37,632 bases of DNA from Robertmurraya massiliosenegalensis JC6 (GTDB taxonomy: Bacteria > Bacillota > Bacilli > Bacillales > Cytobacillaceae), in assembly GCF_000311725.1 (NCBI RefSeq), contig NZ_HE978515.1:469480-507111 (forward strand). Direction: 5' to 3'. Numbering within the stretch: position 1 is the first letter of the stretch; every line of letters starts with the position of its first letter. Made by a program: the position numbers and the translations under genes. Of the stretch, positions 1 to 25,949 are shown in pieces. Below the pieces are notes generated by a model, which made no database searches, was not told the DNA's origin, and saw only the letters and a list, made by a program, of their open reading frames with translations.

Positions 1-909
1 CAAATTATGGATCAAATCATGATTAGTCCGGAAATATATTATGAGATTAATAATTATATTAATTTTACTAACCAATATGGAGAAACGAAAACACTGATTT
101 CCTATAAATCATTGGCAGCATTAGATAAAAATTATCACTGGCAGAGAAATAATCAAAAAAAGAATTTAAACTATTTTTCAAATCAAACTCTCTATCATTT
201 ATTAAACAGATTTTATAATGAAATCGTAGAACAAAAATATAATGTTCTAGTAAAGAAAGAAAATAGATTAACACCCATACATACTCGTCATATTGCTTTT
301 GTTAATTTAATGCTACAAGGGATTCCACCAATTGAAAGAGCAAGATTAGGCGGGCATCAAACAATTACAGCACAATTTCACTACTCTTATCATATTGAAC
401 AATGGGTAGACACAGAAGTATTTAAATTAATGATCCAATATCAAAATTGGGGTGTAGAAAATAGAGTTCAAGAGGATCAGAAATCCCCTGTCTTTATCCC
501 TGAAAAAATAAAGGAGAAGGCCTACTCAGCTATCTCACCTAGTTTCAAAATGAAATTAAAAGAGGTTGGATATTGTACAGATAGACTTCAACGTTGTCAA
601 AGTAAAGAATGCATTTTATGTGATTATTGGGGTATTTCACCCGATGAATTAGAAGAAAAATCCGATGTCATTGTTAAGAAATTATTTGATAGACAAACCG
701 AAATTAAGGAAGTTGTTTCCGTACTAGAGAACATTGAAAGACAATTATTAACCAATGAATTGAGTGGATATGATCCTTCGTTTCAAATTAAACATATGAC
801 AACGATTAATCGTTTAAATGCAAAAATTAAGCAAATTTCAATGATACAAGCTAAAGTTGGCATGCTAGGAGGGAAAATTACATCGTGGGACAACGAGGAA
901 GAAATTTAA
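1..909 (+). CDS. Tyrosine recombinase, C-terminal part (Tn554 TnpB-like), cut by window start
   Basis: The frame is open from base 1, so about 302 C-terminal residues of a longer protein are seen; the first ATG at 7 is probably internal. A tyrosine-recombinase catalytic half is visible: an Arg box (IHTRHIAFVNLML, around residues 95-107), then ARLGGHQTIT and a Tyr-rich FHYSYH about 15 residues on, which would hold the nucleophile. A Cys cluster follows (YCTD..RCQSKECILCDYW), a possible zinc-binding tail. The stop overlaps the next gene by 25 bp. Two recombinases followed by a small TnpC is the Tn554 layout, so I read this as the second, TnpB-like recombinase; the first would lie to the left. 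It would cut and join DNA at the element's attachment site. The recombinase class is fairly sure; the exact subfamily is inferred. Confidence 0.8.
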   Translation, partial: QIMDQIMISPEIYYEINNYINFTNQYGETKTLISYKSLAALDKNYHWQRNNQKKNLNYFSNQTLYHLLNRFYNEIVEQKYNVLVKKENRLTPIHTRHIAFVNLMLQGIPPIERARLGGHQTITAQFHYSYHIEQWVDTEVFKLMIQYQNWGVENRVQEDQKSPVFIPEKIKEKAYSAISPSFKMKLKEVGYCTDRLQRCQSKECILCDYWGISPDELEEKSDVIVKKLFDRQTEIKEVVSVLENIERQLLTNELSGYDPSFQIKHMTTINRLNAKIKQISMIQAKVGMLGGKITSWDNEEEI

Positions 910-1580
910 CCTTATCAAAGGATCAAGTAAACGGAATAATCGGGATGTTTAAAGCTGAAAGAAAAACTTCTGGTTTGATTAAACCGATGGAAATGTTTAA
1001 ATTCACAGAAGAGTTATACAATCAAGGAAGAATTCCCTCCCTACCTTCTTATGAATTTTGGAAGAAAAAAGATCGGCTTGGAAGACAGTTGATTGAACAA
1101 AGAAATAGAATTGACACAGTAAAGTTAACCAATTCGGAAGGTAAAGAGATTACAATACCAAATGTGACTGATTTAGTTGAAAAAAAACACAAAAATAAAG
1201 AAGAGCTATTAGAAGCCCTAGTTCCATTGGAAAATCACCTAAGAAATTCAATTAATCGGGAAATTAATTTAAAAGAAAAAGTTGCAAGTTTAGAGGTGGA
1301 AATTTCCAATATAAAATTATCAAAAAAAGAGTTGCTATCAGAAAAAGAGGAACTACAAAATCTAGTGTTTGAACTTTATAGAATGATTATGAAGGAATAT
1401 AAAAGCGAAACTAAAGAATTTGCTCTATCAGCCCTACAAAATGTTTTTAAAAACCCTTTGGAAATTCTTATGCATACACAAGAAAAAAGCGATAATGATT
1501 CAAATCAAATGTTCAATGAAGAAAATATTGTTTCAATCGAAAGTAAAAAGTCCTTTAAAAATAAGTTTAGGGCTGAATAG
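885..1580 (+). CDS. TnpC-like coiled-coil transposition accessory protein
   Basis: This 231-residue protein starts with GTG inside the end of the recombinase gene; AGGAGGG at 867-873 sits 11 bases before it, so the two are translationally coupled. The N-terminal 60 residues are basic and could bind DNA. From about residue 95 to 170 there are long runs of Glu, Lys, Leu and Asn with heptad-like spacing (for example LLEALVPLENHLRNS and KKELLSEKEELQNLV), consistent with a coiled coil. No catalytic motif is seen. Tn554 carries a small third gene, tnpC, that affects the efficiency and orientation of transposition; position and character match that role although this protein is longer than the Tn554 one. 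The function is inferred from context. Confidence 0.6.
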   Translation: MGQRGRNLTLSKDQVNGIIGMFKAERKTSGLIKPMEMFKFTEELYNQGRIPSLPSYEFWKKKDRLGRQLIEQRNRIDTVKLTNSEGKEITIPNVTDLVEKKHKNKEELLEALVPLENHLRNSINREINLKEKVASLEVEISNIKLSKKELLSEKEELQNLVFELYRMIMKEYKSETKEFALSALQNVFKNPLEILMHTQEKSDNDSNQMFNEENIVSIESKKSFKNKFRAE

Positions 1581-1621
1581 AAAAGTTATGTTAATATAAA
1601 ACCTTTTAGGTGGTGTTTTAA

Positions 1622-2230
1622 ATGGATATAAAGTATCCTAATGGCAAGTCATTCATTAGGAATCAAAATAAAACTAAGCAAAATAAGATTACCAAAAAAA
1701 AGGCTTCGTATTCTAACCGAGGAATGCAATTAGAGGAAATGATAAATGAAAGTAATGAGTTCTATCTTACTCAGGATATTTGTGTTGTACATAAGAAACC
1801 TACACCCATAACAGTTGTTTCTGTAGATTATAGTCGTCGTGCTTCTACGCGGATAAATGAGGCCTATTATCAGACTCCCTCTACTCTTGATTATAGTGGC
1901 GTATATAAAAGTAAGCATCTAGATTTTGATGCAAAAGAAACAAACAACAAAACATCATTTCCACTAAGTAATTTCCATCAGCATCAAATAGAGCATATGG
2001 AGAGAGTTAAAAAACATGGTGGAATTTGCTTTGCAATATTTTATTTTAAGACCTTAGATAAGATTTTTCTTTTGGATGCAGAAGTAATCATTGAGTATTG
2101 GAAAAATCAATCTAACGGTGGAAGAAAATCAATTCCTATACAAGTATTCAATGACAAGGGGAATGAAATTAAGATTGGATATCGTCCAGCAATAGATTAT
2201 ATAAAAATTGTTGATAAATTATACTTTTAA
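1622..2230 (+). CDS. recU: RecU-family Holliday junction resolvase, complete element-borne copy
   Basis: This full-length 202-residue RecU has the family landmarks: YPNGKSF near the start, YSNRGMQLE (30-38), VHKKPTP (56-62), STLDYSGVYK, LDFDAKET, TSFPLSNFHQHQIEHM, and GYRPAIDYIKIVDKLYF at the end. RecU cleaves Holliday junctions in recombination and chromosome segregation. Relative to B. subtilis numbering, the metal-site residues D88 and K103 are present as D90 and K105, but E101 is replaced by Asp (D103). The gene begins 41 bp after tnpC in the same direction, with AGGTGG before the ATG. It is clearly diverged from the native recU remnant at 8577-8966. I infer that it replaces the native gene broken by the element. 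Confidence 0.93.
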   Translation: MDIKYPNGKSFIRNQNKTKQNKITKKKASYSNRGMQLEEMINESNEFYLTQDICVVHKKPTPITVVSVDYSRRASTRINEAYYQTPSTLDYSGVYKSKHLDFDAKETNNKTSFPLSNFHQHQIEHMERVKKHGGICFAIFYFKTLDKIFLLDAEVIIEYWKNQSNGGRKSIPIQVFNDKGNEIKIGYRPAIDYIKIVDKLYF

Positions 2231-2296
2231 AATTCTAACAACTATAACATCTTAATATAGCACTTTTCACTTTTTAGTTTTATAAATATAAGCTCA

Positions 2297-2343
2297 CCTA
2301 ACCCATTGAATACTTTCACATTAAAAATATTTGATGGGTTAGG
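2297..2343. repeat. Inverted repeat, possible weak terminator after recU
   Basis: CCTAACCCAT at 2297-2306 pairs perfectly with ATGGGTTAGG at 2334-2343 around a 27-base AT-rich loop. No T-run follows directly, so termination is uncertain. It lies 66 bp after the element recU stop. Confidence 0.45.
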
Positions 2344-2382
2344 CTTAGGCTATATAAAATTTATACTTAGGTAAATCTTATT

Positions 2383-2508
2383 TCAAATACTCATATTTCT
2401 TGCTATACTAATCGGTATTGGAATGTTGCGCAATTTTGCTCTTTGTTGATTCTCAAAATTATTTTCTATATCTGTTATTGCCAAAAAGATTGAAGTGATA
2501 AATGGCAT
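2383..2508 (-). CDS. Possible 41-residue ORF or gene remnant
   Basis: The minus strand encodes a 41-residue frame (MPFITSIFLAITDIENN to SIARNMSI). The frame stays open about 40 bases upstream of the ATG. No convincing ribosome site precedes it. The composition looks protein-like, but I do not recognise it; it may be the tail of a decayed gene. Function unknown. Confidence 0.22.
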   Translation of the reverse strand: MPFITSIFLAITDIENNFENQQRAKLRNIPIPISIARNMSI

Positions 2509-2628
2509 GTCATTCTTTGATAAATTCTTTGCTATTAAAAGAAAAAAACTATGTCAAGGATAATTACATTTCAGTGGCCCTAATTACCCATAAGTAAGGT
2601 TGTCCAATTTTAGACATTTTTACAATAA

Positions 2629-3000
2629 TTAGTTATTAAACTTAATCTTAACAACGTCTGGTTCTCTTTTTTGCCTAATTAGGATAACATTAGCTTCATA
2701 ATCATTTTCCCATTCTACAGATAAATCATCAGGTAGTTTAGTTTTCATAATTGATTTATCATCATAGTTAATTCTAAGGGTTGGGTCAGGAAATTCATCT
2801 ATCCTAACAATTTCAATTGTATTTATGTTATTAGGAGAATGACTGACCATCAACTGAGTTTCTTCAGGATATGAAAAATATAACCAAACCGGTACTAAAA
2901 CAACTACAAGCACTAGAATAACTATCCCAAAAAAACAGCCAATTCCTGTAAAAAGTTTAGCTTTTTGCTTATTTAAGATGTAATCGTCTTCTCCATTCAT
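2629..3000 (-). CDS. Small membrane-anchored hypothetical protein
   Basis: An ATG at 3021 has no ribosome site. The ATG at 3000 (MNGEDDYILN) is preceded by AAGGGAAG at good spacing, giving 123 residues, and I prefer it. After a short charged N-terminus there is one strong membrane segment (about residues 19-42, GIGCFFGIVILVLVVVLVPV). The remaining 80 residues are likely extracytoplasmic, polar and beta-rich, with SPNNINTIEIVRID and a basic-acidic tail. No lipobox or catalytic motif is seen. The layout resembles small Bacillus proteins with a DUF5412-type outer domain, but I am not certain of that family. It is transcribed against the rest of the cargo, so it is probably an independent unit. 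Confidence 0.6.
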   Translation of the reverse strand: MNGEDDYILNKQKAKLFTGIGCFFGIVILVLVVVLVPVWLYFSYPEETQLMVSHSPNNINTIEIVRIDEFPDPTLRINYDDKSIMKTKLPDDLSVEWENDYEANVILIRQKREPDVVKIKFNN

Positions 3001-3129
3001 TTTATCTTCCCTTCTTTTCATTAAGCTTGTTTATACTTATATAGCAATTTTAAACACTTAATTCTTATTACAATCGCGCAATAAGCCAGCCTCTTATATA
3101 TCCAATTATTTAAAAAAGTATGTAGCTAC

Positions 3130-3189
3130 ACTTTCAAGCCTTGAATAAATGAATGTTAATGTGTATTCATTTATTCAAGGCTTGAAAGT
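3130..3189. repeat. Perfect 24-bp inverted repeat
   Basis: The arms 3130-3153 and 3166-3189 are exact reverse complements, beginning ACTTTCAAGCCTTG, around a 12-base centre. RNA from either strand would form a 24-bp stem. No T-run of terminator length follows on the plus strand. It could be a bidirectional terminator variant, a small transposon scar or a protein site. Confidence 0.75.
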
Positions 3190-3568
3190 TTCTCCAACTT
3201 TATATTACTTCAAATACCTATGAAAATATACATCCAAATTATCATTACTGCTGATTTTCTTAATTATTATTCATTAACGTACTTCTAATAAGTCCCCTTG
3301 TATTTCCCTTTTTCTCTTCAATAATCTTATTTGTTTCAGTTAGATTCTATATGATTAATAATTTTTTTACACTTTTTTATTTCCACCATACCGTTTTAAG
3401 TTTAAGACCTCCTTATAAAGAATGATTTCTTGAAAAAAGCCACACTGCGATGCCCAAAAGATTTAAATTTAAACGCAACAGGATGTTTGTTAAGGTCAAA
3501 CATACAGTTTTGTCTGTTTTGGTACAAGTACCCTTCCAGATTTTATCATTATTAATATACTTTACTAA

Positions 3569-3609
3569 TGTCTATTGAAGAGCCAATAATTCTTTTCAAT
3601 CAATAGACA
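3569..3609. repeat. Inverted repeat in the leader of the wall-binding gene pair
   Basis: TGTCTATTGA at 3569-3578 pairs with TCAATAGACA at 3600-3609. The right arm ends 15 bases before the ribosome site at 3625. It could be an operator or a leader hairpin controlling the two following genes. Confidence 0.5.
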
Positions 3610-3641
3610 ACACTATAAAAAAATAAGGAAGGATGAACAGT

Positions 3642-4199
3642 ATGCCAGTATGTATTAACCGAAGTGGTAGAGCAGTACCTGTTTATGATTATTATGATGT
3701 GACAAAACAAATCGGGACAATCTATAACCTAGAACTATTTGGTTTTGCACCGGGTTGGGGAGGAGATGGAGTATTTGATTTTATTGTATTTAGGAACCCT
3801 AGTGGAAATGTAGTACAGGGTTGTTTAAATACCAACGAATACAATTATCCTAGCAGCGTATACACCACCGCTTACCAATCAAGGTATCGATATGGAACTG
3901 TAACACTTGGAGGAACCACATACAATACTTTTAAAATGACGCGTACAGTAAGCGTTTATCGGACAGATGGTAGCCGTTGGGGAAGTGTTGCAGCAGGACA
4001 GTATGTTGCTACGAACTCTACAGCGAATGGTAGTTCAAGGCCAGATTGGCAATTAATCCACTATGTTCGTAGTACAAGTGGACAATGGGTCAGGGTAACA
4101 AGTGGAACTAATACAAATTATGGATTTGTAAATATTGGACTAGATAAAGGATCGATGTACAACACAATTTCTATGGATGGACTATGGATAAATAATTAA
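3642..4199 (+). CDS. SH3-like/beta-rich protein, probable wall-binding partner
   Basis: The ATG at 3642 (MPVCINRSGRAVPVYDYYD) is preceded by AAGGAAGG at 3625-3632 with 9-base spacing; the in-frame ATG at 3633 overlaps that site and is unlikely. The product is 185 residues, rich in Tyr, Gly, Ser, Thr and Asn. It seems to be made of beta-strand segments, with a C-terminal half that looks SH3-like (VSVYRTDGSRWGSVAAGQYVAT, then WVRVTSG..YGFVNIGLD). No signal peptide or membrane segment is present. It lies 65 bp upstream of the large peptidoglycan-binding/DUF1906 gene in the same direction, suggesting that the two act together outside the cell or in lysis. I do not recognise a named family. Confidence 0.7.
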   Translation: MPVCINRSGRAVPVYDYYDVTKQIGTIYNLELFGFAPGWGGDGVFDFIVFRNPSGNVVQGCLNTNEYNYPSSVYTTAYQSRYRYGTVTLGGTTYNTFKMTRTVSVYRTDGSRWGSVAAGQYVATNSTANGSSRPDWQLIHYVRSTSGQWVRVTSGTNTNYGFVNIGLDKGSMYNTISMDGLWINN

Positions 4200-4264
4200 G
4201 TAATTTCTTCAAAGATATAACTGAATTATTTACTTTAAAGTAAATGAAAGGGAGGAAGATAAAG

Positions 4265-6610
4265 ATGGATGAGATGGTATTAGCAGTACAAGAATGGGTT
4301 AATGAAAAGTACGGTGATCATCCCGGATCCAGCAGAATTCCTGAAAATGGTAAAACAGGTTGGTCTACTGTGTACGCATTAACGCGTGCATTACAAATTG
4401 AATTAGGTATAACTAACACAGCTAATAATTTCGGACCTTCCACTGAAGCCGCATATAAAGCGTTTGGCGAAATGTCCTTTGACAATGTACCTAATACAGA
4501 ACAAGGAAGAAATATCGTTAAAATTCTTCAGGGAGCATGTTGGTGTAAAGGCTATAATCCCGGAGCGTTTAATGGCATTTTTGGTCCAGCTACCGAACGT
4601 GCAGTTATAAAGTTACAACAAGACGCAGGACTGCCTCAACAAGATGGAGTAGTATATGTACACGTCTTCAAAGCCTTCTTAACAATGGATGCATATGTAC
4701 TAACTTCTGGTGGAGATCCACAAATAAGAGAGATTCAGAGAACATTAAATAATAAATACTATCAATACTCAGGAGTTCAACCATGTGATGGTCATTATCA
4801 AAGACAAACAAACCGAGCGTTAATTTATGCTTTACAAACTGAAATCGGCATCCCTGCACACCAACAAACAGGAACTGTTGGACCTGCGACGAGAGCAGGA
4901 TTGCCTAATTTAACCATCGGTTCAAGTCAAAGTAATTTTGTTAGGTTATTAAAATATGCAATTGTTTTTAACGGATACACTCTAAGTAATATTAATGGAA
5001 CCTTTGATAATGAGTTGAGTAATGTTTTACGAGAATTCCAATCTTTTACTCTTTTAAACCAAAGTGGTAAAGCTGATTATCAAACATGGATGTCATTATT
5101 AGTTAGCACAGGTGATCCAAATCGAAAAGGTACAGCATGTGATGGGATAACACAAGTTACTTCTGCAAAAGCACAGACACTTGTTAATGAAGGTTATGTA
5201 ATTATTGGTCGGTATCTAACTAACGTTCCGGGTGGCTTAAATAAACGAATACAACCGGGCGAACTACAGACTATTTTTAACGCTGGACTGTCTGTGTACC
5301 CCATATTTCAGGAAAGTCATGCAAATGCGAGTAACTTTTCTCGTAATCAAGGATATGAGGATTATCAGAAAGCCTTTAGAGCAGCCGCATCCTATGGTTT
5401 TCCTAAAGGAACAACAATTTATTTTGCAGTAGACTTCGATGTATTAGGTCACGAAATTTCTAATGCCATAATTCCCCACTTTATAGGTTTAAATGAAGCA
5501 AAAAATGATATGGGGAACCAATATAACATTGGAATCTACGGGCCACGTAATGCGTGCATTCAAGTATCCAATAGGGGATTAGCTGATTATAGTTTTGTTA
5601 GTGGACTTTCTACAGGTTTTAGTGGGAATTTAGGCTATCCTTTACCAGACAATTGGGCTTTTGATCAAATATCAACTATTACAATCGGATCAGGTTCGGG
5701 AGTGATAAATATCGATAATAATATAAATTCTGGTAGGGATTCAGGTGCTTCTTTTATTGATGATAGTGTTGAAGTCCCAAGCGAATTACCAGAAGACCCG
5801 AACAATTTGTCTTACAATGAATTTAAAATTATTGCATTAGGTGCTTCCAAATACGCTAACGAAGAAGGTAACTCTAATATTGATGATTTGAATTATAATA
5901 TAAGTGGTTATTATAGGAAGGGTGTATATACTGGTCCACGATGGGCAGCTTTAGCTGGTTTTTATCCATTATTCTTCGAGTTATATTTAGAGAATTTAGT
6001 TGGTCAACCCCTAGACCCTTTCATCGACTTAATTGACCCAATCGAAAATCATCCTATTGGCGTTCAGCATATGTTTGCTGTTGTGAATAGTTACTATGGT
6101 AACTTTAAAGACTCTGTTGAAATTACAGATATAACTGGCTGGGCAGGTGACTTAATTACAATGGCAAGAAATGTAGTTATGTACAGAGATCAATATGAAG
6201 GAAGCTTAATTGATCAAACGTATGCAGCAGCTTACGATTTAATAGGCATGGTTGAAAATGAACCTTTTGATGATTTACTATTTGATTTGGATGACTTATT
6301 AGGTGATGTTGATGCATATAACATTGCTTACGAAGCCAAAAAACTAAATGTGAGTATTGCAGAAATTTTCCCAAGTTACTATACACTAGGATTAGTAAAT
6401 ACTCGTTTTACTAGGTTTTTCAATCAACGTTTTAATGGTGATAGAGCAAAATTATTAATTGACGTTGTAGAAGTTATGACAGGCGGTATAGAGTATGCAA
6501 TTGTTAGAGAAGAACTAATCGGAGATTTAAATCTTAGTGAAGGTGAATTAGAAGCAATCGCTGTAGCTTTTTATAATAAAATCCTGTATTACGTCGATCA
6601 AGGTAAGTAA
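4265..6610 (+). CDS. Peptidoglycan-binding protein with DUF1906 (Rv2525c-like, GH25-type fold) domain
   Basis: The start is ATG 4265 (MDEMVLAVQEW) behind AAAGGGAGG at 4247-4255; the upstream ATG at 4244 has no site. The 781-residue product has several peptidoglycan-binding-like helical repeats in the first 290 residues, each with a G.FGPATE..., GTVGPATR or GTFDNEL signature. A DUF1906 domain spans about 288-500, from CDGITQVTSAKAQTLVNEGY through FPKGTTIYFAVDFD, IGIYGPRNAC and WAFDQIS. Family knowledge links this fold to lysozyme-like TIM barrels. The C-terminal 260 residues form another domain with GWAGDL, FDLDDLLGDVDAYNIAY and RFTRFFNQRF; I cannot name it. There is no signal peptide, so export would need a non-classical route, lysis or a partner. 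It is cargo of the recU-targeted element. Confidence 0.85.
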   Translation: MDEMVLAVQEWVNEKYGDHPGSSRIPENGKTGWSTVYALTRALQIELGITNTANNFGPSTEAAYKAFGEMSFDNVPNTEQGRNIVKILQGACWCKGYNPGAFNGIFGPATERAVIKLQQDAGLPQQDGVVYVHVFKAFLTMDAYVLTSGGDPQIREIQRTLNNKYYQYSGVQPCDGHYQRQTNRALIYALQTEIGIPAHQQTGTVGPATRAGLPNLTIGSSQSNFVRLLKYAIVFNGYTLSNINGTFDNELSNVLREFQSFTLLNQSGKADYQTWMSLLVSTGDPNRKGTACDGITQVTSAKAQTLVNEGYVIIGRYLTNVPGGLNKRIQPGELQTIFNAGLSVYPIFQESHANASNFSRNQGYEDYQKAFRAAASYGFPKGTTIYFAVDFDVLGHEISNAIIPHFIGLNEAKNDMGNQYNIGIYGPRNACIQVSNRGLADYSFVSGLSTGFSGNLGYPLPDNWAFDQISTITIGSGSGVINIDNNINSGRDSGASFIDDSVEVPSELPEDPNNLSYNEFKIIALGASKYANEEGNSNIDDLNYNISGYYRKGVYTGPRWAALAGFYPLFFELYLENLVGQPLDPFIDLIDPIENHPIGVQHMFAVVNSYYGNFKDSVEITDITGWAGDLITMARNVVMYRDQYEGSLIDQTYAAAYDLIGMVENEPFDDLLFDLDDLLGDVDAYNIAYEAKKLNVSIAEIFPSYYTLGLVNTRFTRFFNQRFNGDRAKLLIDVVEVMTGGIEYAIVREELIGDLNLSEGELEAIAVAFYNKILYYVDQGK

Positions 6611-6931
6611 AATAAAATGGTTATGACAAAACTCTATTAAAATAAATACTCGCATGAATTCAAAGTTCCTTTATTTTATGCGATTTTTTGATAAATGGTT
6701 CTCAATATTATCACTTATGTCCCAGCCATTAGAGAATAAATACTAAATCAATATTAAGTTTCAATTGTTTAAAACACCGAATCTCAAACTATCAATAAAT
6801 TTAATTGCCCTGATTTTTGGAAGTTTTTAGACTTTCTTCTTCCCCATTGTTACAATACCAATTATCCTGTATATTTAAATCAGCTATATTTGTAATCTAT
6901 ATAAACTAATGATTGAAAAGGGTTGATACCA
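6611..6931. other. AT-rich spacer with a possible terminator
   Basis: No gene is seen. The terminator-like hairpin at 6650-6690 is listed separately. The rest is AT-rich and presumably holds the promoter of the next gene, but no clear consensus is visible. Confidence 0.45.
6650..6690 (+). terminator. Possible rho-independent terminator
   Basis: TCGCAT (6650-6655) pairs with ATGCGA (6678-6683), followed directly by a run of six T. The stem is short and the loop long (22 bases), so strength is uncertain. It lies 40 bp after the DUF1906 gene. Confidence 0.45.
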
Positions 6932-7567
6932 ATGAAAACCAAAATGAAACTAATTATATCTTTACTCGTTTTTATTTCTATTCTTATTGTTTTCATAATA
7001 ATGTATCAAAAACCGAACGGACAAACAGATGTTATAAAAAGCAATGACGAAATAGCGGAAATAAAAACTGAAAAAAATAAAGAAGTTCCAAACGATGAAG
7101 ATAAACAAGTAAGTATCAATGATGATGCCGATAATTTAACCGAAATTGAAAATCCTGAAAAAAAACAAAATGAAAGAATATCGCTATTTATTTCAAAATA
7201 CCATGAAAGCTTAAATGAAATAACTTCTTATGATAAATACGAAAATATAGATTGGCTTGGTATGAAGTCAATAAAGGAAAATATGTCAAATGAAATTAAA
7301 AATTTGTTAAACAATCAAGATTCCTACCCACCATCTATGGAATTAGATTTAGAACGCATTTTGCAATTAGCCGAAATCAGCTTAGATAACCAAGACCCAA
7401 ACTCCGTTATATATATCCACCGAATCCTTCATGATTTAGATGTTGAGTATAATGACTATACACCTAATAATAAATTTGGTTTTTCCAACTACGATGGAGG
7501 GGGAGAAAATCAATTAACTGTTTCAAATTATATTAAAGAACACAAAAAGCCAGAAGATACTTACTAA
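6932..7567 (+). CDS. Membrane-anchored acidic hypothetical protein
   Basis: The ATG at 6932 (MKTKMKLIISLLVF) has GAAAAGGG about 10 bases upstream; an in-frame TTG at 6923 is less likely. The product is 211 residues: a short Lys-rich N-terminus, one membrane segment (about 7-26, LIISLLVFISILIVFIIMYQ), a polar linker rich in Glu, Asp, Asn and Lys to about residue 85, then a helical outer region (ISLFISKYHESLNEIT, LDLERILQLAEISLDN) and a tail with FSNYDGGGENQLTVSNYI. No lipobox is seen. The stop codon lies inside a strong terminator stem. I do not recognise the family; the layout suggests an extracytoplasmic protein tethered to the membrane, perhaps working with the wall-binding proteins before it. 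Confidence 0.65.
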   Translation: MKTKMKLIISLLVFISILIVFIIMYQKPNGQTDVIKSNDEIAEIKTEKNKEVPNDEDKQVSINDDADNLTEIENPEKKQNERISLFISKYHESLNEITSYDKYENIDWLGMKSIKENMSNEIKNLLNNQDSYPPSMELDLERILQLAEISLDNQDPNSVIYIHRILHDLDVEYNDYTPNNKFGFSNYDGGGENQLTVSNYIKEHKKPEDTY

Positions 7568-7585
7568 GTATCTTCTGGCTTTTTT
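7544..7585 (+). terminator. Strong bidirectional terminator overlapping the stop codon
   Basis: A 20-bp perfect stem (7544-7563 with 7565-7584) carries GCCAGAAGATAC and its complement, flanked by A5 on the left and T5 on the right. It includes the last codons and stop of the preceding gene and could stop transcription from either side. Confidence 0.9.
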
Positions 7586-7780
7586 AAACAATACAAAAGC
7601 TAGTTTGCCAATGACTTACATATAATGGCCCTTATTTTAATATCTCCCATCACTTCTACTGTATCAGCTAATTTTATTTCCCCAAAAAAATCTTTTTAAA
7701 AATTCATTGTTATGAATTACTTTATTTAGCAAGAATAAGTCAGCCAAACAAGGATTACCAAAATCTTTATCTAAAAATGT
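7586..7780. other. Short AT-rich spacer
   Basis: Nothing recognisable is seen between the terminator and the 3' end of the minus-strand zinc-ribbon gene. Confidence 0.4.
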
Positions 7781-7978
7781 TTATTCAAATTCCGATAACT
7801 CTTCAAAGTGATTCTCTGGCGGGTTATTTGAAAAAGAACGTTTAGCGTACTCTAATCCACCATCTACAGTAACCTTTCCACATTTGCATCTTTTAAAATC
7901 ATACAGACTTCTTGATTCTATAACATCACCACAGTACTTACATCTAATCATATTCCTTTTTAGCTTTTTCTCAAACAT
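7781..7978 (-). CDS. Small zinc-ribbon protein
   Basis: This is a 65-residue protein starting MFEKKLKRNMIRCKYCGDVIESRSLYDF and continuing KRCKCGKVTVDGGLEY. Two CxxC/CxC-type knuckles (CKYC at about 13-16 and CKC at about 31-33) suggest a four-Cys zinc ribbon. AGGAG lies about 7 bases before the ATG, supporting translation. Similar short proteins with RCKYCGDVIES...CKCGKV...DGG are common in Bacillus genomes and mobile elements (a DUF7695-type family, from memory), with no known function. It is on the minus strand and probably independent of the genes before it. The tail is acidic (FEELSEFE). Confidence 0.7.
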   Translation of the reverse strand: MFEKKLKRNMIRCKYCGDVIESRSLYDFKRCKCGKVTVDGGLEYAKRSFSNNPPENHFEELSEFE

Positions 7979-8155
7979 CTTTCTCTCCTTTTACATTTCC
8001 AATCAATAACTGGGATAACTGGTTTTTTTCGGGAAATTCTTCTTCCAAACACTAAAGCAGGATTGATGAACTATTCACAGCCTTTGTAATCCCGAACAGA
8101 TGTTCTCTACTATTTTAATGCTCCTACCTATTACCAACGCTTCTTCTGTACTCAA

Positions 8156-8184
8156 TTAAATGCTGGATACAAATGTGATATAAT
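8156..8184 (+). promoter_or_regulatory. Extended -10 promoter near the element right end
   Basis: TATAAT at 8179-8184 is preceded by TG with one base between (TGATATAAT), an extended -10. A weak -35, TTAAAT, lies at 8156-8161 with a 17-base spacer. It points toward the hairpin tract, the recU remnant and ponA. Confidence 0.5.
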
Positions 8185-8189
8185 AACTA

Positions 8190-8400
8190 TGCTTTGGAGT
8201 TGTTTGAAATATAAGACCAAGGATTTTTCTCGGATAAATTGTGATAAAATTATTAATTGTGGTATATCATTATTTTGTAAATAAATGAAGGACTAAGGTC
8301 AATCTACACCATTTTATATAATGGTTTTATTAGCCTACTTGAAAATGGAAGGTAATCCTTCAAGTGGTCTTTCTATATAAAGTCTGCCCCTGTGTAGCAA
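8190..8400 (+). ncRNA. Candidate structured RNA inside the element right end
   Basis: Downstream of the extended -10 promoter the strand can fold: CCATT/AATGG (8309-8313 with 8320-8324), a 9-bp bulged hairpin with ACTTGAA/TTCAAGT (8334-8367), and an enclosing CTACAC/GTGTAG pair (8304-8309 with 8392-8397). These nested stems make a small multibranch shape. It matches no RNA family I can name. The evidence is base pairing by eye only. Confidence 0.25.
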
Positions 8401-8491
8401 TTAATAAAAGTTTTTGTGTTCAAATGACAAATTTGATGTAAAATAGTGTCTTAGAGTAATTAATTATTATAAAATAAGCTTGTAGGATAAA

Positions 8492-8580
8492 AATTTTCGC
8501 CTGTTTCAAAAGGGCGAAAATGCAATAGTACAACGGTCACAAGGAATATTATTTTTCGCCCTTTAAAATTCATGCCTATA
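8492..8580. mobile_element. Right terminus of the Tn554-like element, junction with host recU
   Basis: Homology to native recU begins around 8577-8580 (codons for KITEAYFK), so the element ends just before. Within 85 bp of that point TTTTCGCC occurs three times in alternating orientation: 8494-8501 plus, 8512-8520 minus and 8553-8561 plus. The last two extend to a perfect 12-bp inverted repeat (8509-8520 with 8553-8564). AAAATT is repeated at the junction (around 8565 and 8580) with 15-base spacing, possibly the crossover core. These look like recombinase binding sites. The exact end cannot be fixed without the left end. Confidence 0.6.
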
Positions 8581-8966
8581 AAATTACAGAAGCTTATTTT
8601 AAGCAAGCATCAACTACTGATTATAATGGGGTATACAAAGGAAAATATATTGATTTTGAAGCAAAGGAAACGCGATTTAAAACATCCTTTCCCCTGCAAA
8701 ATTTTCATAAGCACCAAATTGAGCATATTAGGCAGGTACTCAATCAGCATGGAATCGCCTTTGTCATTCTTCGCTTTTCGACCATTGAAGAGGTGTTCTT
8801 TCTTGAAGGCAAGGACTTACTTTTCTTTTGGGAAAGGATGGAAAATGGTGGAAGGAAGTCAATCACCATTTCAGAAGTTGAACAATATGGACATAAGATT
8901 TCGCTTGGTTTTCGACCTCGAATTGACTATATTAAAGTCATAGATAAGCTCTATAATCTGATGTAG
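8577..8966 (+). pseudogene. recU: 3' remnant of the native recU, split by the element
   Basis: The frame reads [17 protein letters not shown] and continues through [36 protein letters not shown] and [16 protein letters not shown] to a TAG at 8964-8966. This equals RecU from about residue 77 to the end. The first 75 or so residues, including the SNRG and KKPTP motifs, are missing. Upstream the frame runs into element sequence and a stop at 8526-8528. The catalytic D, E and K (B. subtilis D88, E101, K103) remain in the fragment. It stands 31 bp before ponA, the normal recU-ponA neighbour arrangement of Bacillus. It probably makes no functional protein. Confidence 0.93.
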
Positions 8967-8997: not shown

Positions 8998-11589
8998 ATG
9001 GCAGAAAAATACCAATCAAGAGAGGAGCGCCGTAAGCAAGTTAGTCAACAAAAAGGAAAAGGCAATAAAAAAGTAAAACTATCGATTAAACGTATTTTTC
9101 TTTTTCTTGTTGCATTAGGAATTGCAGGTTTGCTTATTGGTGCTGGAACTTTTGCTTATATGGTTAAAGATACGCCAGAACTTGATGAAAAATTATTGAA
9201 GGATCCAATCTCGTCCGAGCTTTATGATATTAACGGTGAACTATTTGCGGAGATTGGCTCAGAAAAACGTGATTATGTCAATTATGAAGATATTCCAAAG
9301 CAGGTTGAGGAAGCGATATTGGCTACTGAAGACACCCGTTTCTATAAGCATAATGGAATTGATTTGATTCGTCTTGGTGGAGCAGTCGTAGCCAATATTA
9401 CCGAAGGCTTTGGTGCTGAAGGCGCAAGTACGATTACCCAACAGGTCGTCAAAAACTCCTTTTTAACACCTGAAAAAACGTTGTCCCGTAAAGCTCAAGA
9501 AGCATGGTTATCCTTTCAATTAGAAAGAAAGTACACAAAGCAACAAATCTTTGAAATGTATGTCAATAAAATTTGGATGGATTCAGGCGGACATGGAGTT
9601 GCTACTGCTGCAAAAGTATTCTATGGCAAAGAACTCGATCAATTAACATTAGCAGAAACGGCATTACTTGCTGGGATGCCACAAAGTCCAGCCAACTATA
9701 ATCCATTTAAAAATCCGGATAAAGCCGAAAAACGCCGTAATATCGTTCTAACTTTAATGCACAAACACGGCTTTATCACACAAGAAGAAATGGAAGAAGC
9801 TAAAAATGTTGATGTTGCATCAACACTAGTTCCAGAAGACGAACGACCAACTGGCGATATCCCGTATGATGCCTTTGTTGGCCATGTCGTAAAAGAAATC
9901 AAGGCGAAGTATCCAGATCTTGATCCTTTTTCAGACGGTCTTAAAATATACACGACACTTGAACCCGATGCACAGAAATATGTAGAAGACATTCTAAACG
10001 GGGATGAGATTATTGAGTATCCAGATGAAAAATTCCAAGCAGGAATTTCCCTTTTAGATACAGCAACTGGACAAATTCGAGCTCTAGGTGGTGGACGTAA
10101 CCAAACGGTTGACTTTGGCTTTAATTATGCCACTGATGCAAAGAGACAACCTGGTTCAACGATCAAGCCGGTTCTTGACTACGGTCCTGCAATTGAATAT
10201 TTAAAATGGGGAACATATCATACTTTAGATGATAAGCCCTATACGTACTCAACTGGCGATAAGATTAGCAACTGGGATAATAAGCATATGGGCGTGATGA
10301 CGATGCGTACTGCACTGGCATTGTCACGAAATATCCCTGCTCTGCAAGCGTTTCAAGAAGTGGGAGAAGAAAAGGCAAAGCAATTTGCCATAAGTTTAGG
10401 AATCCCACTTAAGGAAATCCATGAATCATACTCGATCGGCGGATTTGGTGGTGAGGATAAAGGAGTTTCTTCACTTGAAATGGCTGGTGCGTATAGCGCA
10501 TTTGGAAATAATGGTTTTTATACTGAGCCATATTCTGTTATTGAGATTCAGCTTCGCGATGATACAAAGTTAAATATGAAGCCTGAGTCTAAGGTTGTCA
10601 TGCAAGATTATACTGCGTTTATGATTTCCGATATGCTAAAGGATGTCGTACGAACAGGTACTGGAACTCGAGCTAATATTTCTGGCTTACCACTAGCAGG
10701 AAAGTCAGGAACAACGAACTACCCTGATGCAGATAAAAAGAAATACAATATTCCGAATGGAGCTGTACCAGATGCCTGGTTTGTTGGGTACACAACCAAT
10801 TACACAGCCGCTGTATGGACTGGATATGATAATAAAAATGAAAATTATTTAGAGGGCGATGAACAAAAAATCGGCCAAAGATTGTTCAAAAACATCATGG
10901 AACATGTTCATAATGGCAAAGAAACTCAAGACTTCAAAGTTCCTAACACAGTTGAAAAAGTCCAAATCGAAAAAGGAACCATTCCTGCAAAATTAGCAAG
11001 TGAATACACGCCAAGTGACATGGTCATTACCGAATATGCAGTAAAAGGGAATGCTCCAAAAGAAGTATCCGAAAAGTATAATAAACTTGAAACACCTGTG
11101 GATCTAAAAGCTGACTATGATACAGAAAGAAATGAAATTGTGTTAAGTTGGAATTATGTCGCAGAGAACGCAAACGGTGTTCAGTTTGAAATCTATGCGA
11201 AGAAAGATGACGGTGCAGAAGAACTCTTGACCGCTCAAGCTGAAAAAACGCTTAGAATGAAAGCTGATTATGGTGGATACTACACCTTCAAAGTTGTAGC
11301 GATTCGCGATGAACAAAAGAGTGATCCAGCTACCGCTGAAATTCAGATTCCTGACCCATTTATTTTTGATGGTGAAGATGACGAAGAGGATAACGGTAAC
11401 AATAACGGTCACGGTCCTCCTTGGGGGCGTGATGATGACGATGAAGAAGAGAATGATCAAGACAACGAAGATCAAGGAAATGAAGACCAGGGTCAAGGTG
11501 AGAATCCGGACGGCGGTGAACAACAAGGCGGAAACCAAGACCAAGGTCAAGGCAATCAAAATGGCGGAAATCAGGGGAACCAACCATAA
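8998..11589 (+). CDS. ponA: Class A penicillin-binding protein 1 (transglycosylase/transpeptidase)
   Basis: This 863-residue protein polymerises and cross-links peptidoglycan at the outer face of the membrane. It has a basic cytoplasmic start, one membrane segment (about 31-54), then a GT51 glycosyltransferase domain with E111 in ATEDTRFYKHNGID and the GASTITQQVVKN motif. The transpeptidase carries the SxxK motif S387TIK, the SxN motif S443RN and the KTG-type box K569SGT. A fibronectin-III-like domain spans about 701-786. The tail is low-complexity Asp, Glu, Asn, Gln and Gly. AAGGAAGG precedes the ATG. The length is close to B. subtilis PonA (914). Because the element has cut recU, transcription of ponA must now start inside or beyond the element end. 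Confidence 0.97.
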   Translation: MAEKYQSREERRKQVSQQKGKGNKKVKLSIKRIFLFLVALGIAGLLIGAGTFAYMVKDTPELDEKLLKDPISSELYDINGELFAEIGSEKRDYVNYEDIPKQVEEAILATEDTRFYKHNGIDLIRLGGAVVANITEGFGAEGASTITQQVVKNSFLTPEKTLSRKAQEAWLSFQLERKYTKQQIFEMYVNKIWMDSGGHGVATAAKVFYGKELDQLTLAETALLAGMPQSPANYNPFKNPDKAEKRRNIVLTLMHKHGFITQEEMEEAKNVDVASTLVPEDERPTGDIPYDAFVGHVVKEIKAKYPDLDPFSDGLKIYTTLEPDAQKYVEDILNGDEIIEYPDEKFQAGISLLDTATGQIRALGGGRNQTVDFGFNYATDAKRQPGSTIKPVLDYGPAIEYLKWGTYHTLDDKPYTYSTGDKISNWDNKHMGVMTMRTALALSRNIPALQAFQEVGEEKAKQFAISLGIPLKEIHESYSIGGFGGEDKGVSSLEMAGAYSAFGNNGFYTEPYSVIEIQLRDDTKLNMKPESKVVMQDYTAFMISDMLKDVVRTGTGTRANISGLPLAGKSGTTNYPDADKKKYNIPNGAVPDAWFVGYTTNYTAAVWTGYDNKNENYLEGDEQKIGQRLFKNIMEHVHNGKETQDFKVPNTVEKVQIEKGTIPAKLASEYTPSDMVITEYAVKGNAPKEVSEKYNKLETPVDLKADYDTERNEIVLSWNYVAENANGVQFEIYAKKDDGAEELLTAQAEKTLRMKADYGGYYTFKVVAIRDEQKSDPATAEIQIPDPFIFDGEDDEEDNGNNNGHGPPWGRDDDDEEENDQDNEDQGNEDQGQGENPDGGEQQGGNQDQGQGNQNGGNQGNQP

Positions 11590-12825: not shown

Positions 12826-13533
12826 TTATTGATCTAACCAATTATAAAAAGGCACAGCCTCAGAACGGGGAGCCTGCTCTGTTTCATTTGGGCGAATTTG
12901 TTGCCTTGAATGTTGTCTAAATTTATTCCCATAACTTTTTGCTTGTTCGATCGTTTTAATCCCATTTTTCTTCCACTCAAAGAGAATTCGGTCAATATAG
13001 CGAAAATTAAGCTTTCCAGAAATAACCGCTTCTCGCAATGCCGCTTTAATGATAAGTGGTTCATGGCGATCATCATCCAGCCATAATGCGAGTGTTTCAC
13101 ATTCAAATGGCGATAGTGGTCTCCCAAACTCTTGCTCGAAGACCGTATACAAATCGACTTCATTTTTTTGTTGCTGATCTTTTCTTTGATCATTCTGATT
13201 TCGTAAAAATTCATTTACAAGCTTATGCCAAAGTGGTTCAATTGAATATTTTTCAAAGCGGATCCCATCATTTGATTGCCCGTCTTCAATTTGGATAAAT
13301 CCTTTTTGAATCAATTTACGAAGGATTTCCGTACACTGACTCGTCGAGATCGTCATCCTTGAAGAAATTTCAGAAGGCGTTGGGAAATCATTCCCTTTTT
13401 CAAGGAATGAGATGACATGTAACAAAAGGACTAATTCGTTCTCGTTCATATTCATTTCTTTATAATAAAGTAATAAAGCCCTTGGAATGGAAATATTCCC
13501 TTCTTGGACCCATTTCACCATGTTTTCATTCAT
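12826..13533 (-). CDS. dnaD: Primosomal/replication restart protein DnaD
   Basis: DnaD works with DnaA, DnaB and DnaI to load the replicative helicase at oriC and at restart sites. ATG 13533 (MNENMVKWVQEGN) follows GGGGGAGG at good spacing and is preferred over a GTG nine bases earlier; it gives 235 residues, near the B. subtilis length. The N-terminal winged helix (about 20-100) includes SIPRALLLYYKEM, FPTPSEISSRMTIS and LRKLIQKGFIQIE. The C-terminal DnaD domain (about 130-210) has FEQEFGRPLSPFECETLALW and GKLNFRYIDRILFEWKKNGIKT. The final FYNWLDQ is typical. It lies between asnS and nth as in B. subtilis. Confidence 0.97.
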   Translation of the reverse strand: MNENMVKWVQEGNISIPRALLLYYKEMNMNENELVLLLHVISFLEKGNDFPTPSEISSRMTISTSQCTEILRKLIQKGFIQIEDGQSNDGIRFEKYSIEPLWHKLVNEFLRNQNDQRKDQQQKNEVDLYTVFEQEFGRPLSPFECETLALWLDDDRHEPLIIKAALREAVISGKLNFRYIDRILFEWKKNGIKTIEQAKSYGNKFRQHSRQQIRPNETEQAPRSEAVPFYNWLDQ

Positions 13534-13603
13534 TTGGGACACCTCCCCCTAAGTATATCATGAAGTTCTGTAAACAAGGTATGGAGAAATTAGTCAAGCC
13601 AGT

Positions 13604-23620: not shown

Positions 23621-24807
23621 CTAAATAGCCACTCCTTTATCGATTCCATGTCATTGGCAATTTCCCGCTTGACGACTGCCTTTTCGATGGCCAAAAGTTT
23701 TTCTTCAATCCAGGGTCCACCCTTTATTTGATACCATTGCAGTAAATCTTGACCGGTCACCACTAATTCTGCTCTCTCTCTTATCGGCAACTGTTCCAAC
23801 ATCGCTTTTAACATCTCAATGTTTTCTTCGATCACCTTTGTTTTCAAGACGTTAAACAGTTGTTCCGTACTAATGACAAGCTCCTCGCCTGCCCGATATA
23901 AGTCCTCTCGTTCCCATCCATGCTCTAATCGTCGATATAGCCAACTTAATCCTGTCTTCACTCTGCGAATTTGTTTGACCGGAAGCTTCCAACATCTTAA
24001 AAATACCTCAACCTCTGATGGTACTAGCTTTAAATGAAAAAGAAGAAATACCCAACGTTCACTGATGGTAAAATGACTAGAAAGGTTAAACATTGAATAC
24101 TTCATTAGTTCTTTTTCCTTCCCATCAAAGCCAGGTAAATACTGATAAATTCCTGTATCTATTAAAATCTTCAGTGCTTGCTGATTATTTTCTCCTCGTA
24201 ACAGCTTTTCAAATTCCGTTGTTTTTCTCTCAACAGCGATCCTTTCTAGCCATTGTTTATGTTCGCTTAAAGCTTGATACGTTTCCAGTTCTAGAGAAAA
24301 AGACAGTTGGCTGACAAAACGTATAGCTCTCATCATTCTAAGGGCATCTTCGTGAAATCTCTCACCAGCATTCCCAACGGTTTGAATGAGCTTAGCTTGA
24401 ATCGCTATCTGACCGTTAAAAGGATCTATGATCTTCCCTTCTTTATCCATCGCAATGGCATTCATCGTAAAATCTCTGCGCTGTAAATCTTCCTCTAAAG
24501 AACGTATAAAGGTCACTTCATTTGGTCTTCTAAAATCGTCATAATCCGATTCGCTGCGAAAAGTGGTAACCTCGTATGTATCTCCCTCATAAAGAACAAC
24601 AACCGTTCCGTGAGCAATACCTACATCAATCGTTTTTGGAAATATTGCTTGTATCTCTTCTGGGGTTGCAGAAGTAGCAATATCGACATCATCAATTTGT
24701 CTGTCAAGTAAGTGATCGCGAACGGATCCCCCGACAAAGTACGCTTCATAGCCTGCATCTTCAATTTTTTTTAATATTGGTAATGCTTTTATAAAAGGGG
24801 CTTTCAT
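23605..24807 (-). CDS. cca: CCA-adding tRNA nucleotidyltransferase
   Basis: The enzyme builds or repairs the 3' CCA end of tRNAs. This 400-residue class II form has the nucleotidyltransferase head with [22 protein letters not shown] (metal-binding DVD), the template-Arg region [12 protein letters not shown], and [21 protein letters not shown] helical neck and body follow. The start overlaps the bshA stop by ATGA and the end overlaps birA, so expression is tightly coupled along the cluster. B. subtilis has the same order. The full length and intact motifs suggest activity. Confidence 0.96.
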
Positions 24808-25949
24808 TCTTTTTCACCTTTTTGGATCGTCTCATAATATAGTTCTTCGTATTGCTCGACAATCAAATCCGCTCTAAAACGTTCCCATACTGTCGCAATC
24901 GCAGCTTGTGAAAAACGTTCATGTAAGGCTGAATCAGTCAGCAAATTCAAAGACTTTTTAGCAATATATTCAATATCCCCTAGCTCACAAACATACCCTG
25001 TTTCTCCATCCATAATCACTTCTGGTAATCCGCCAATATTGGTTCCAACACATGGCACACCACATGCCATCGCCTCCAAAGCAACGAGCCCGAAGCTTTC
25101 TTTTTCAGATAAGAGAAGCATTAAATCACTAATCGAATACAATTCCTCTAAATTATCCTGTTTCCCTAAAAAGAGAACTTTATCTTTAATTTTCAGTTGA
25201 TCGACGAGTTTTGAGACAAAAGGCATTTCTGGCCCATCACCAATGAGAAGTAATTTCGCTTCTGTCTGCTCCGCAATTTTTGCAAATACCTTTATGACAT
25301 CTGGAACACGTTTTACAGCCCGAAAATTACTAACATGGATCAAAACCTTTTCATTGACTTCTATTCCAAATTCTTCCTTCAAATAAGCAGAATCTGTTCT
25401 ACGATAGACTCGCTCATCAATAAAATTATAGACCGGTACAATTTGTTTATTTGGATTAATTAAGTCATAGGTTTGCTGGATTAATGAATTAGACACAGCT
25501 GTAACCGCATCTGACTTTTCAATTCCAAATCGAATCGCATCTGTTAATGTCAAGTCATAGCCAAGGATGGTTATATCCGTCCCATGTAGGGTCGTCACAA
25601 TTTTAATATCTCTGCCGCTCATCTGCTTCGCTAAAATGGCACAAACGGCATGAGGGATCGCATAATGAACATGAAGTATATCTAGGTTTTCCCTTTGAAT
25701 CACTTCTGCCATTTTACTTGCAAGTGCGATATCATATGGTGGGTATTGAAAAACGGAATATTGGTTAACCTCAACTTGATGATAATAGATATTGTGATAC
25801 ATCTTGTTTAAGCGAAATGGGAGACTAGACGATATGAAATGAATTTCATGTCCTTTTTCAGCCAACATTTTTCCAAGTTCTGTGGCGATCACCCCTGAAC
25901 CGCCTACCGTTGGATAGCAGGTAATTCCTATTTTTAATTTCTTCGTCAT
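24804..25949 (-). CDS. bshA: N-acetyl-alpha-D-glucosaminyl L-malate synthase (bacillithiol step 1)
   Basis: BshA joins GlcNAc from UDP-GlcNAc to L-malate, the first step to bacillithiol. The 381-residue GT4-type, GT-B fold enzyme has [30 protein letters not shown] at the start (glycine loop), [21 protein letters not shown], and the EX7E motif in [26 protein letters not shown]. It overlaps bshB1 by one base (TAATG), so both bacillithiol enzymes are co-translated. The gene order matches B. subtilis ypjH. Confidence 0.96.

Follow-up and report, generated by a model that had tools for sequence, protein, structure and literature searches.

The DNA examined here, 37,632 nucleotides of Robertmurraya massiliosenegalensis JC6 (contig NZ_HE978515.1, positions 469,480 to 507,111; hereafter the window), begins within an island of ~15.4 kb (contig 462660-478061) that breaks the native recU into a 5′ and a 3′ part and holds a complete, diverged recU of its own (Table 1). 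A whole-genome search with the RecU profile (PF03838) returned four matches, these being the full gene in the island, the 3′ part, the 5′ part and a partial match (86 positions) on a different contig, leaving the island-borne gene as the only intact recU of the genome. Since the 5′ part adjoins a gene of the yppC type, the native recU stands in its usual place, broken by the island; its native right-hand neighbour is presumably ponA, a name assigned by reading. Each of the six other genomes of the genus that were examined has a single full-length recU, uninterrupted at the insertion codon. With the split gene, both ends and only one intact copy found, these results bear out the first-pass annotation, made from the letters of the window, in its proposals that a tyrosine-recombinase element sits in recU and brings its own complete, diverged RecU, and that a 5′ recU part might be sought at the left end and empty-site relatives elsewhere.

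Both island ends could be located (left GTCATAAATTATAGG; right CCTATAAAATTACAG). The CCTATAA of the right end inverts the TTATAGG of the left, and beside this inverted TTATAGG there is an AT-rich core, a clear 10-nt direct repeat not being seen; a long terminal repeat was sought in the repeat lists and none was found there. The replacement RecU scores 285.5 bits against NCBIfam NF002584 (cut-off 236) and gives full-length matches to the family models and to solved RecU structures (2fco, residues 1-202). Compared with the native halves it is identical at 46% of positions over 84 aa and at 52% over 125 aa (about 50% overall), which argues against a recent duplication and agrees with the earlier remark that the two copies are too diverged for a simple one. 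At the insertion codons the native gene reads SAAVI-x-EAYF and the copy STRI-N-EAYY, so that the copy should itself be no target.

Table 1. Features of the recU island of R. massiliosenegalensis JC6 and its surroundings, from left to right (ORF, open reading frame).
Feature	Location	Strand	Remarks
5′ part of native recU	contig 462424-462678		same contig, 6.8 kb left of the window; profile positions 1-43
Island left end	contig 462655		GTC ATAAAT TATAGG
Gene C, 5′ part	contig 467500-468324		275 aa
Run of 1155 N inside gene C	contig C5:468325-469479		directly left of window position 1
Gene C, 3′ part	window 1..909 (reading frame 7-909)	+	third tyrosine recombinase, last 302 aa; HTRH ... LGGH motif
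Gene D	window 885-1580	+	231-aa coiled-coil-like protein; counterpart of GinD/Srap/TnpC by position only
Replacement recU	window 1622-2230	+	202 aa, complete; 41 bp behind gene D
Cargo region	window 2231..8574
Cargo ORF, 130 aa	window 2629-3021	-
Cargo ORF, 188 aa	window 3633-4199	+
Cargo peptidoglycan-binding / Rv2525c-like glycoside-hydrolase protein	window 4244-6610	+
Cargo ORF, 214 aa	window 6923-7567	+
Island right end	window 8575..8586	+	CCTATA, then AAATTA, then native CAGAAGC; exact crossover base not fixed
3′ part of native recU	window 8581..8966	+	open to the stop codon; RecU profile match starts at 8565
ponA (presumed)	window 8998..11589	+	native right neighbour of recU

From its left end the island holds a helix-turn-helix (HTH) gene (176 aa), the module genes A (456 aa), B (876 aa), C (about 580 aa, 275 + 302 around the 1155 N) and D (231 aa), then recU and the cargo. 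A second N run was seen on contig C7 (L007:9650-10713). This four-gene module contradicts the first-pass view of a three-gene Tn554-type element, whose 'TnpB' is the tail of the third protein, gene C; extension to the left in search of tnpA did reveal, besides the HTH gene, two further genes of recombinase type and the beginning of a third, in a layout that is not that of tnpABC. In alignments A conserves R, H-x-x-R and Y, B (18 rows) keeps the R, R, H and Y positions in most rows, and C (20 rows) has R, TRH and GGH in most rows, L057 and L066 being misfits that are probably pieces of B. Searches of Pfam and NCBIfam placed A below cut-off only and gave no meaningful family for B, C or D, gene D having no Pfam family and no NCBIfam match above cut-off. 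By tblastn, A, B and C stand in this order at 19 of 20 related-element loci, the twentieth being an 8.3-kb contig, D was matched at 11 of the 20, and an ORF of 196-269 aa lies directly behind C in 18 of 19 loci.

This layout has known counterparts. GInt islands (ginABCD), which have members in the Firmicutes, are site-specific, are excised as circles, need all four of their genes and encode three recombinase-type proteins and a small fourth protein in one operon with cargo behind; they enter the ends or 5′ ends of genes (ssb, ABC transporter) and other sites, one lying at a duplicated ribonucleotide reductase gene, and the part of the report available describes no island-borne replacement of the target (PMC5385486). 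Our island shares the three tyrosine-recombinase-type genes, the small fourth gene and the cargo behind, a likeness of layout only. GInt ends are imperfect direct repeats of at least 10 nt; ours show the inverted TTATAGG and the AT-rich core. Strand-biased circularizing integrative elements (SE), found mainly in Gammaproteobacteria, have four core genes (intA, tfp, intB and srap), a 6-bp footprint and a site preference, and target replacement is not mentioned for them in the accessible portion of the source (PMC10214605). The order and sizes of our module resemble those of SE, but the second SE protein is without the RHRY motif, whereas in our family most of the 18 aligned B rows retain R, R and Y. 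Tn554 has no Tfp counterpart according to the same portion (PMC10214605) and, although it shares tyrosine recombinases with our island, it has three genes (tnpA-tnpB-tnpC) against four, for which reason membership of the Tn554 family was rejected. Judged by its gene layout, the island is a member of a GInt/SE-like island family in Bacilli.

Related islands were sought with protein A. A first search found 31 places in 28 of 397 genomes, our own included, of which 20 were examined (G038, G343, G278 and G256 were left out), and a flank for G200 and four weaker or fragmentary places were added later; a second matched 90 of 398 genomes, often weakly and partially, and contributed 13 examined places (G578, G603 and weak ones were left out). 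A third search gave matches in 81 of 398 genomes with no strong new place, and a contig scan with protein A alone yielded no confirmed match. Around the A matches 20 to 60 kb were taken, as contigs allowed, all ORFs of a locus were compared mutually, and a replacement was called where two frames, one at each island end, matched successive parts of one full-length gene in the same locus. The resulting 33 loci comprise our own, 19 relatives and 13 further ones (L255 with a partial A only); L059 and L239-L242 entered only a control of island copies against all loci, 38 in number.

A full homologue of the split gene was carried at 8 of the 33 loci, with seven targets in seven genomes. Besides recU these are radA in G132 (its copy lies 3 bp behind C, shows 38-39% identity and scores 434 bits with the RadA model, cut-off 403), a RarA-type ATPase gene in G200 (copy against the two parts 51% and 65%), a DEAH helicase gene of the MrfA/YprA type in G718 (85% and 79%), a 5′-3′ exonuclease gene in G567 (81% and 66%), a nuclease-like gene in G716 (two near-identical copies, 53-66% identity) and a YhaM-like gene on contig 13 of Bacillus kwashiorkori (25% identity). 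Scores with the family models stay under the cut-off for RarA, MrfA, the exonuclease and YhaM, and NCBIfam offers no match to the nuclease; these names we assign partly by reading, on which the pairing of the parts with the copy does not depend. In whole-genome searches the island copy was the only intact one in all five cases (recU in our genome and in B. kwashiorkori, radA, rarA and mrfA), the radA, rarA and mrfA genomes holding the island copy, the two parts and otherwise weak partial matches only. When the seven copies were searched against the 38 control loci (1.18 Mb), none met a further copy inside another island; leaving aside the target parts that belong to each copy and the twin in G716, they matched a radA part (L059) and an exonuclease part (L248), each standing beside A and presumed to be a target half, the mrfA of our host genome close to the recU island, and three weak RarA matches set aside as P-loop similarity. 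Within the stretches examined, therefore, no island bears another island's target gene. Island copies were also compared with their targets at the insertion site in a look for special recoding; they differ there and elsewhere too, so that the difference at the site is not taken as selected recoding.

Some features of individual islands may be added. G716 has two near-identical islands (L250 and L252); they lie on separate contigs, and each has entered its own copy of one nuclease-like gene. The radA island (L060 with L234, oriented 24372-25534) has a gene that by reading is D-like at its far right, beside a serine-recombinase-like gene and not behind C. Four related islands (L049, L050, L051 and L243) entered radC just before the stretch coding for HNHPSG, a gene which is the target of Tn554 as well. 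An ArgE-like pair at L248 and nuclease-like pairs at L062 and L066 were not counted as target parts, since they do not flank the islands.

In Bacillus kwashiorkori SIT6 recU is likewise split, between a yppC-type gene and ponA, and an intact element RecU, 83% identical to ours, is retained; module genes sought at this recU locus were not found there, and the 3′ part of the native gene carries a stop and indels. The two element recU genes share 84% DNA identity over 667 bp, including 43 bp upstream of the gene, and 301 bp spanning the right end of the island share 74%; the native recU halves of the two species, like their yppC, ponA and dnaD proteins, show an identity of 49-52%, against 77% for nth and 84% for asnS. 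A tree of 52 RecUs unites the two element RecUs in a single clade (support 100/100), which falls outside the supported clades of the relatives from our genus and of the family relatives of B. kwashiorkori. The two genes differ by a dS of 0.77 and a dN of 0.087 over 202 codons (dN/dS about 0.11), pointing to strong purifying selection on the element RecU since the copies parted. By these comparisons, RecU travels with the element and is inherited with the island. A contig scan with both element RecUs, which relied on two peptide patterns and would let clade members without these escape, gave among the best 80 of 224 relatives one close match (B. kwashiorkori) and 79 at 48-54% identity, and plasmid and phage collections (19 and 38 records) held no RecU of at least 60% identity. 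B. kwashiorkori has two target-replacing loci (L055 and L124), the recU relic and the island in yhaM.

The split gene, both island ends, the single intact copy, the inheritance of RecU with the element, the purifying selection and the six other targets are demonstrated at the level of sequence, and very probably a site-specific island of a Bacilli family split recU and its own distant, complete recU took over, a self-compensating insertion by target-gene replacement. The island, with its A, B, C, D module, would recombine site-specifically at a short recU site, marked by the SAAVI/EAYF codons, and so split the native gene, and the element RecU, produced together with the module or under signals of its own, would replace the lost Holliday-junction resolvase. 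This would remove the cost of insertion, block a repeat insertion and penalise imprecise loss of the island; the replacement may have been selected since it takes away the insertion cost and makes losing the island costly. The recU finding is real and larger than noted in the first-pass annotation, several related Bacilli islands carrying a substitute for a split core gene. We also consider it likely that four-gene islands of Bacilli practise target replacement as a general strategy, a forced swap of repair-gene alleles that would give self-protection and host dependence, the swapped gene outlasting the recombinases. Under such a strategy lineages probably specialise on core nucleic-acid genes and alter the copy at the insertion site, and the recU of B. 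kwashiorkori would then, as seems probable, be a swapped gene left behind after recombinase decay.

Several of the targets here are repair genes, and the recA island of Vibrio cholerae also carries umuDC and a MutL-domain gene and shields E. coli from DNA damage (PMC4405046, available in part), as might be expected if recU were ordinary beneficial cargo for extra DNA repair and its match to the target a coincidence or the outcome of an island bias to repair genes. We regard this as improbable, since the copy matches the island's own target for seven targets with no further copy inside another island across the 38 loci, since the targets include a yhaM-type gene and a nuclease gene, and since the copy was the only intact one in each of the five whole-genome searches. 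The intactness of just one of the two genes would suit a history in which the host started out with the full RecU and acquired the split one later from elsewhere, or a rearrangement without recombinases. Yet it is the split gene that adjoins ponA and the yppC-type gene, and its distance to the genus relatives is small (pN 0.08-0.19). The full copy stands farther off, with a pN of 0.33-0.35 to each of the six, and outside the genus-relative clade in the tree. As all six relatives also keep an ordinary recU, this history is scarcely credible. RecU lies close behind gene D on the same strand, which would suit a part of the transposition machinery, and the first-pass annotation had suggested that it may help the island by resolving recombination junctions. 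In relatives, however, the same module is accompanied by RadA, RarA or a nuclease, or by no gene of this kind, and a role of this sort is highly unlikely.

Several points weigh against target replacement by the recU island, or against its generality. The run of 1155 N lies in our gene C, whereas gene C is contiguous in most relatives; because of this, our gene C is perhaps interrupted, and an unassembled repeat or an insertion such as an insertion sequence may have left this island copy immobile. The YhaM-like case is weak at its 25% identity (93 bits against a cut-off of 460), and its 3′ part (34 aa) was seen in the ORF comparison and not in the 38-locus control. The position of the copy varies between islands: for recU, radA, yhaM and mrfA it follows the module closely, whereas the exonuclease copy lies ~3 kb behind the module, the nuclease copy to the left of A and the rarA copy near the other end. 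At 7 of the 33 loci both target parts were located with no copy (radC in L049, L051 and L243, a DUF72-type gene in L052-L054 and floT in L064), so that replacement is not obligatory; genes split without replacement may be cheap to lose. The remaining 18 loci were placed neither with nor without a copy, and among them are a further radC and a further floT locus, three loci that by reading adjoin topB-type fragments, and the exonuclease-site island L248, which showed no copy within the stretch examined. The element clade stands on a long stem (1.93) in the RecU tree, which renders its exact place unsure. Lastly, excision, integration, movement of the island, expression and complementation are all processes that we infer.

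Target replacement has single precedents. The recA mobile element (RME) of V. cholerae S24 is a site-specific island that splits recA and carries a complete, functional recA copy, 23% divergent, and excises as a circle, and the same source cites an insert in the thymidylate synthase gene of C. difficile that holds another version (PMC4405046, available in part). Our island is like it in that a recombination gene is split, a complete, diverged homologue lies inside a site-specific island and no other intact copy exists; unlike ours, the RME belongs to Vibrio, targets recA and has a phage integrase and a XerS-type recombinase, and its report, in the part available, is a first one of a single island with no family habit. 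The tmk island of Pseudomonas putida KT2440 splits the essential tmk and supplies the function through a dNMP kinase, and related tmk islands retain the substitute and two tyrosine-type recombinases (PMC10653934, likewise partial). There too the function of an essential gene is supplied by the island that splits it, but the substitute is a T4-type dNMP kinase and not a homologue of the target as in our island. The first-pass annotation had known of no recU-targeted element with a replacement, and neither a recU-targeting island nor replacement stated as a rule is among the matches listed in the literature, few subscription journals being covered; the principle itself is anticipated by the recA and tmk cases.

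By the usual view, site-specific elements keep their cost low through insertion in tRNA genes or at the ends of genes. The family described here cuts through the middle of conserved genes and supplies a substitute, up to now with seven different targets. Target replacement, if true, would explain how elements persist in core genes and would provide a route for the horizontal replacement of repair genes at their native locus; addiction and self-immunity become testable, and where an annotation shows a 'pseudogene plus paralogue' for recU, radA, rarA or a repair helicase, the pair can be the signature of a single island.

Within the cargo a perfect 25-nt inverted repeat with a 10-nt loop occupies window 3130-3189. 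An Enterococcus faecalis plasmid that bears streptogramin and glycopeptide resistance genes also encodes a protein homologous to A (L262, LR961926.1, 27314-28642; 29% identity). The HTH protein of the island (L005:7949-8479) ends in PFYNWLED and its counterpart at L056:14990-15529 in PFYNWLEED, a tail that resembles the C-terminus of the host DnaD-type protein (VPFYNWLDQ, window 12826-13542) and is perhaps a docking motif common to the island and host proteins.

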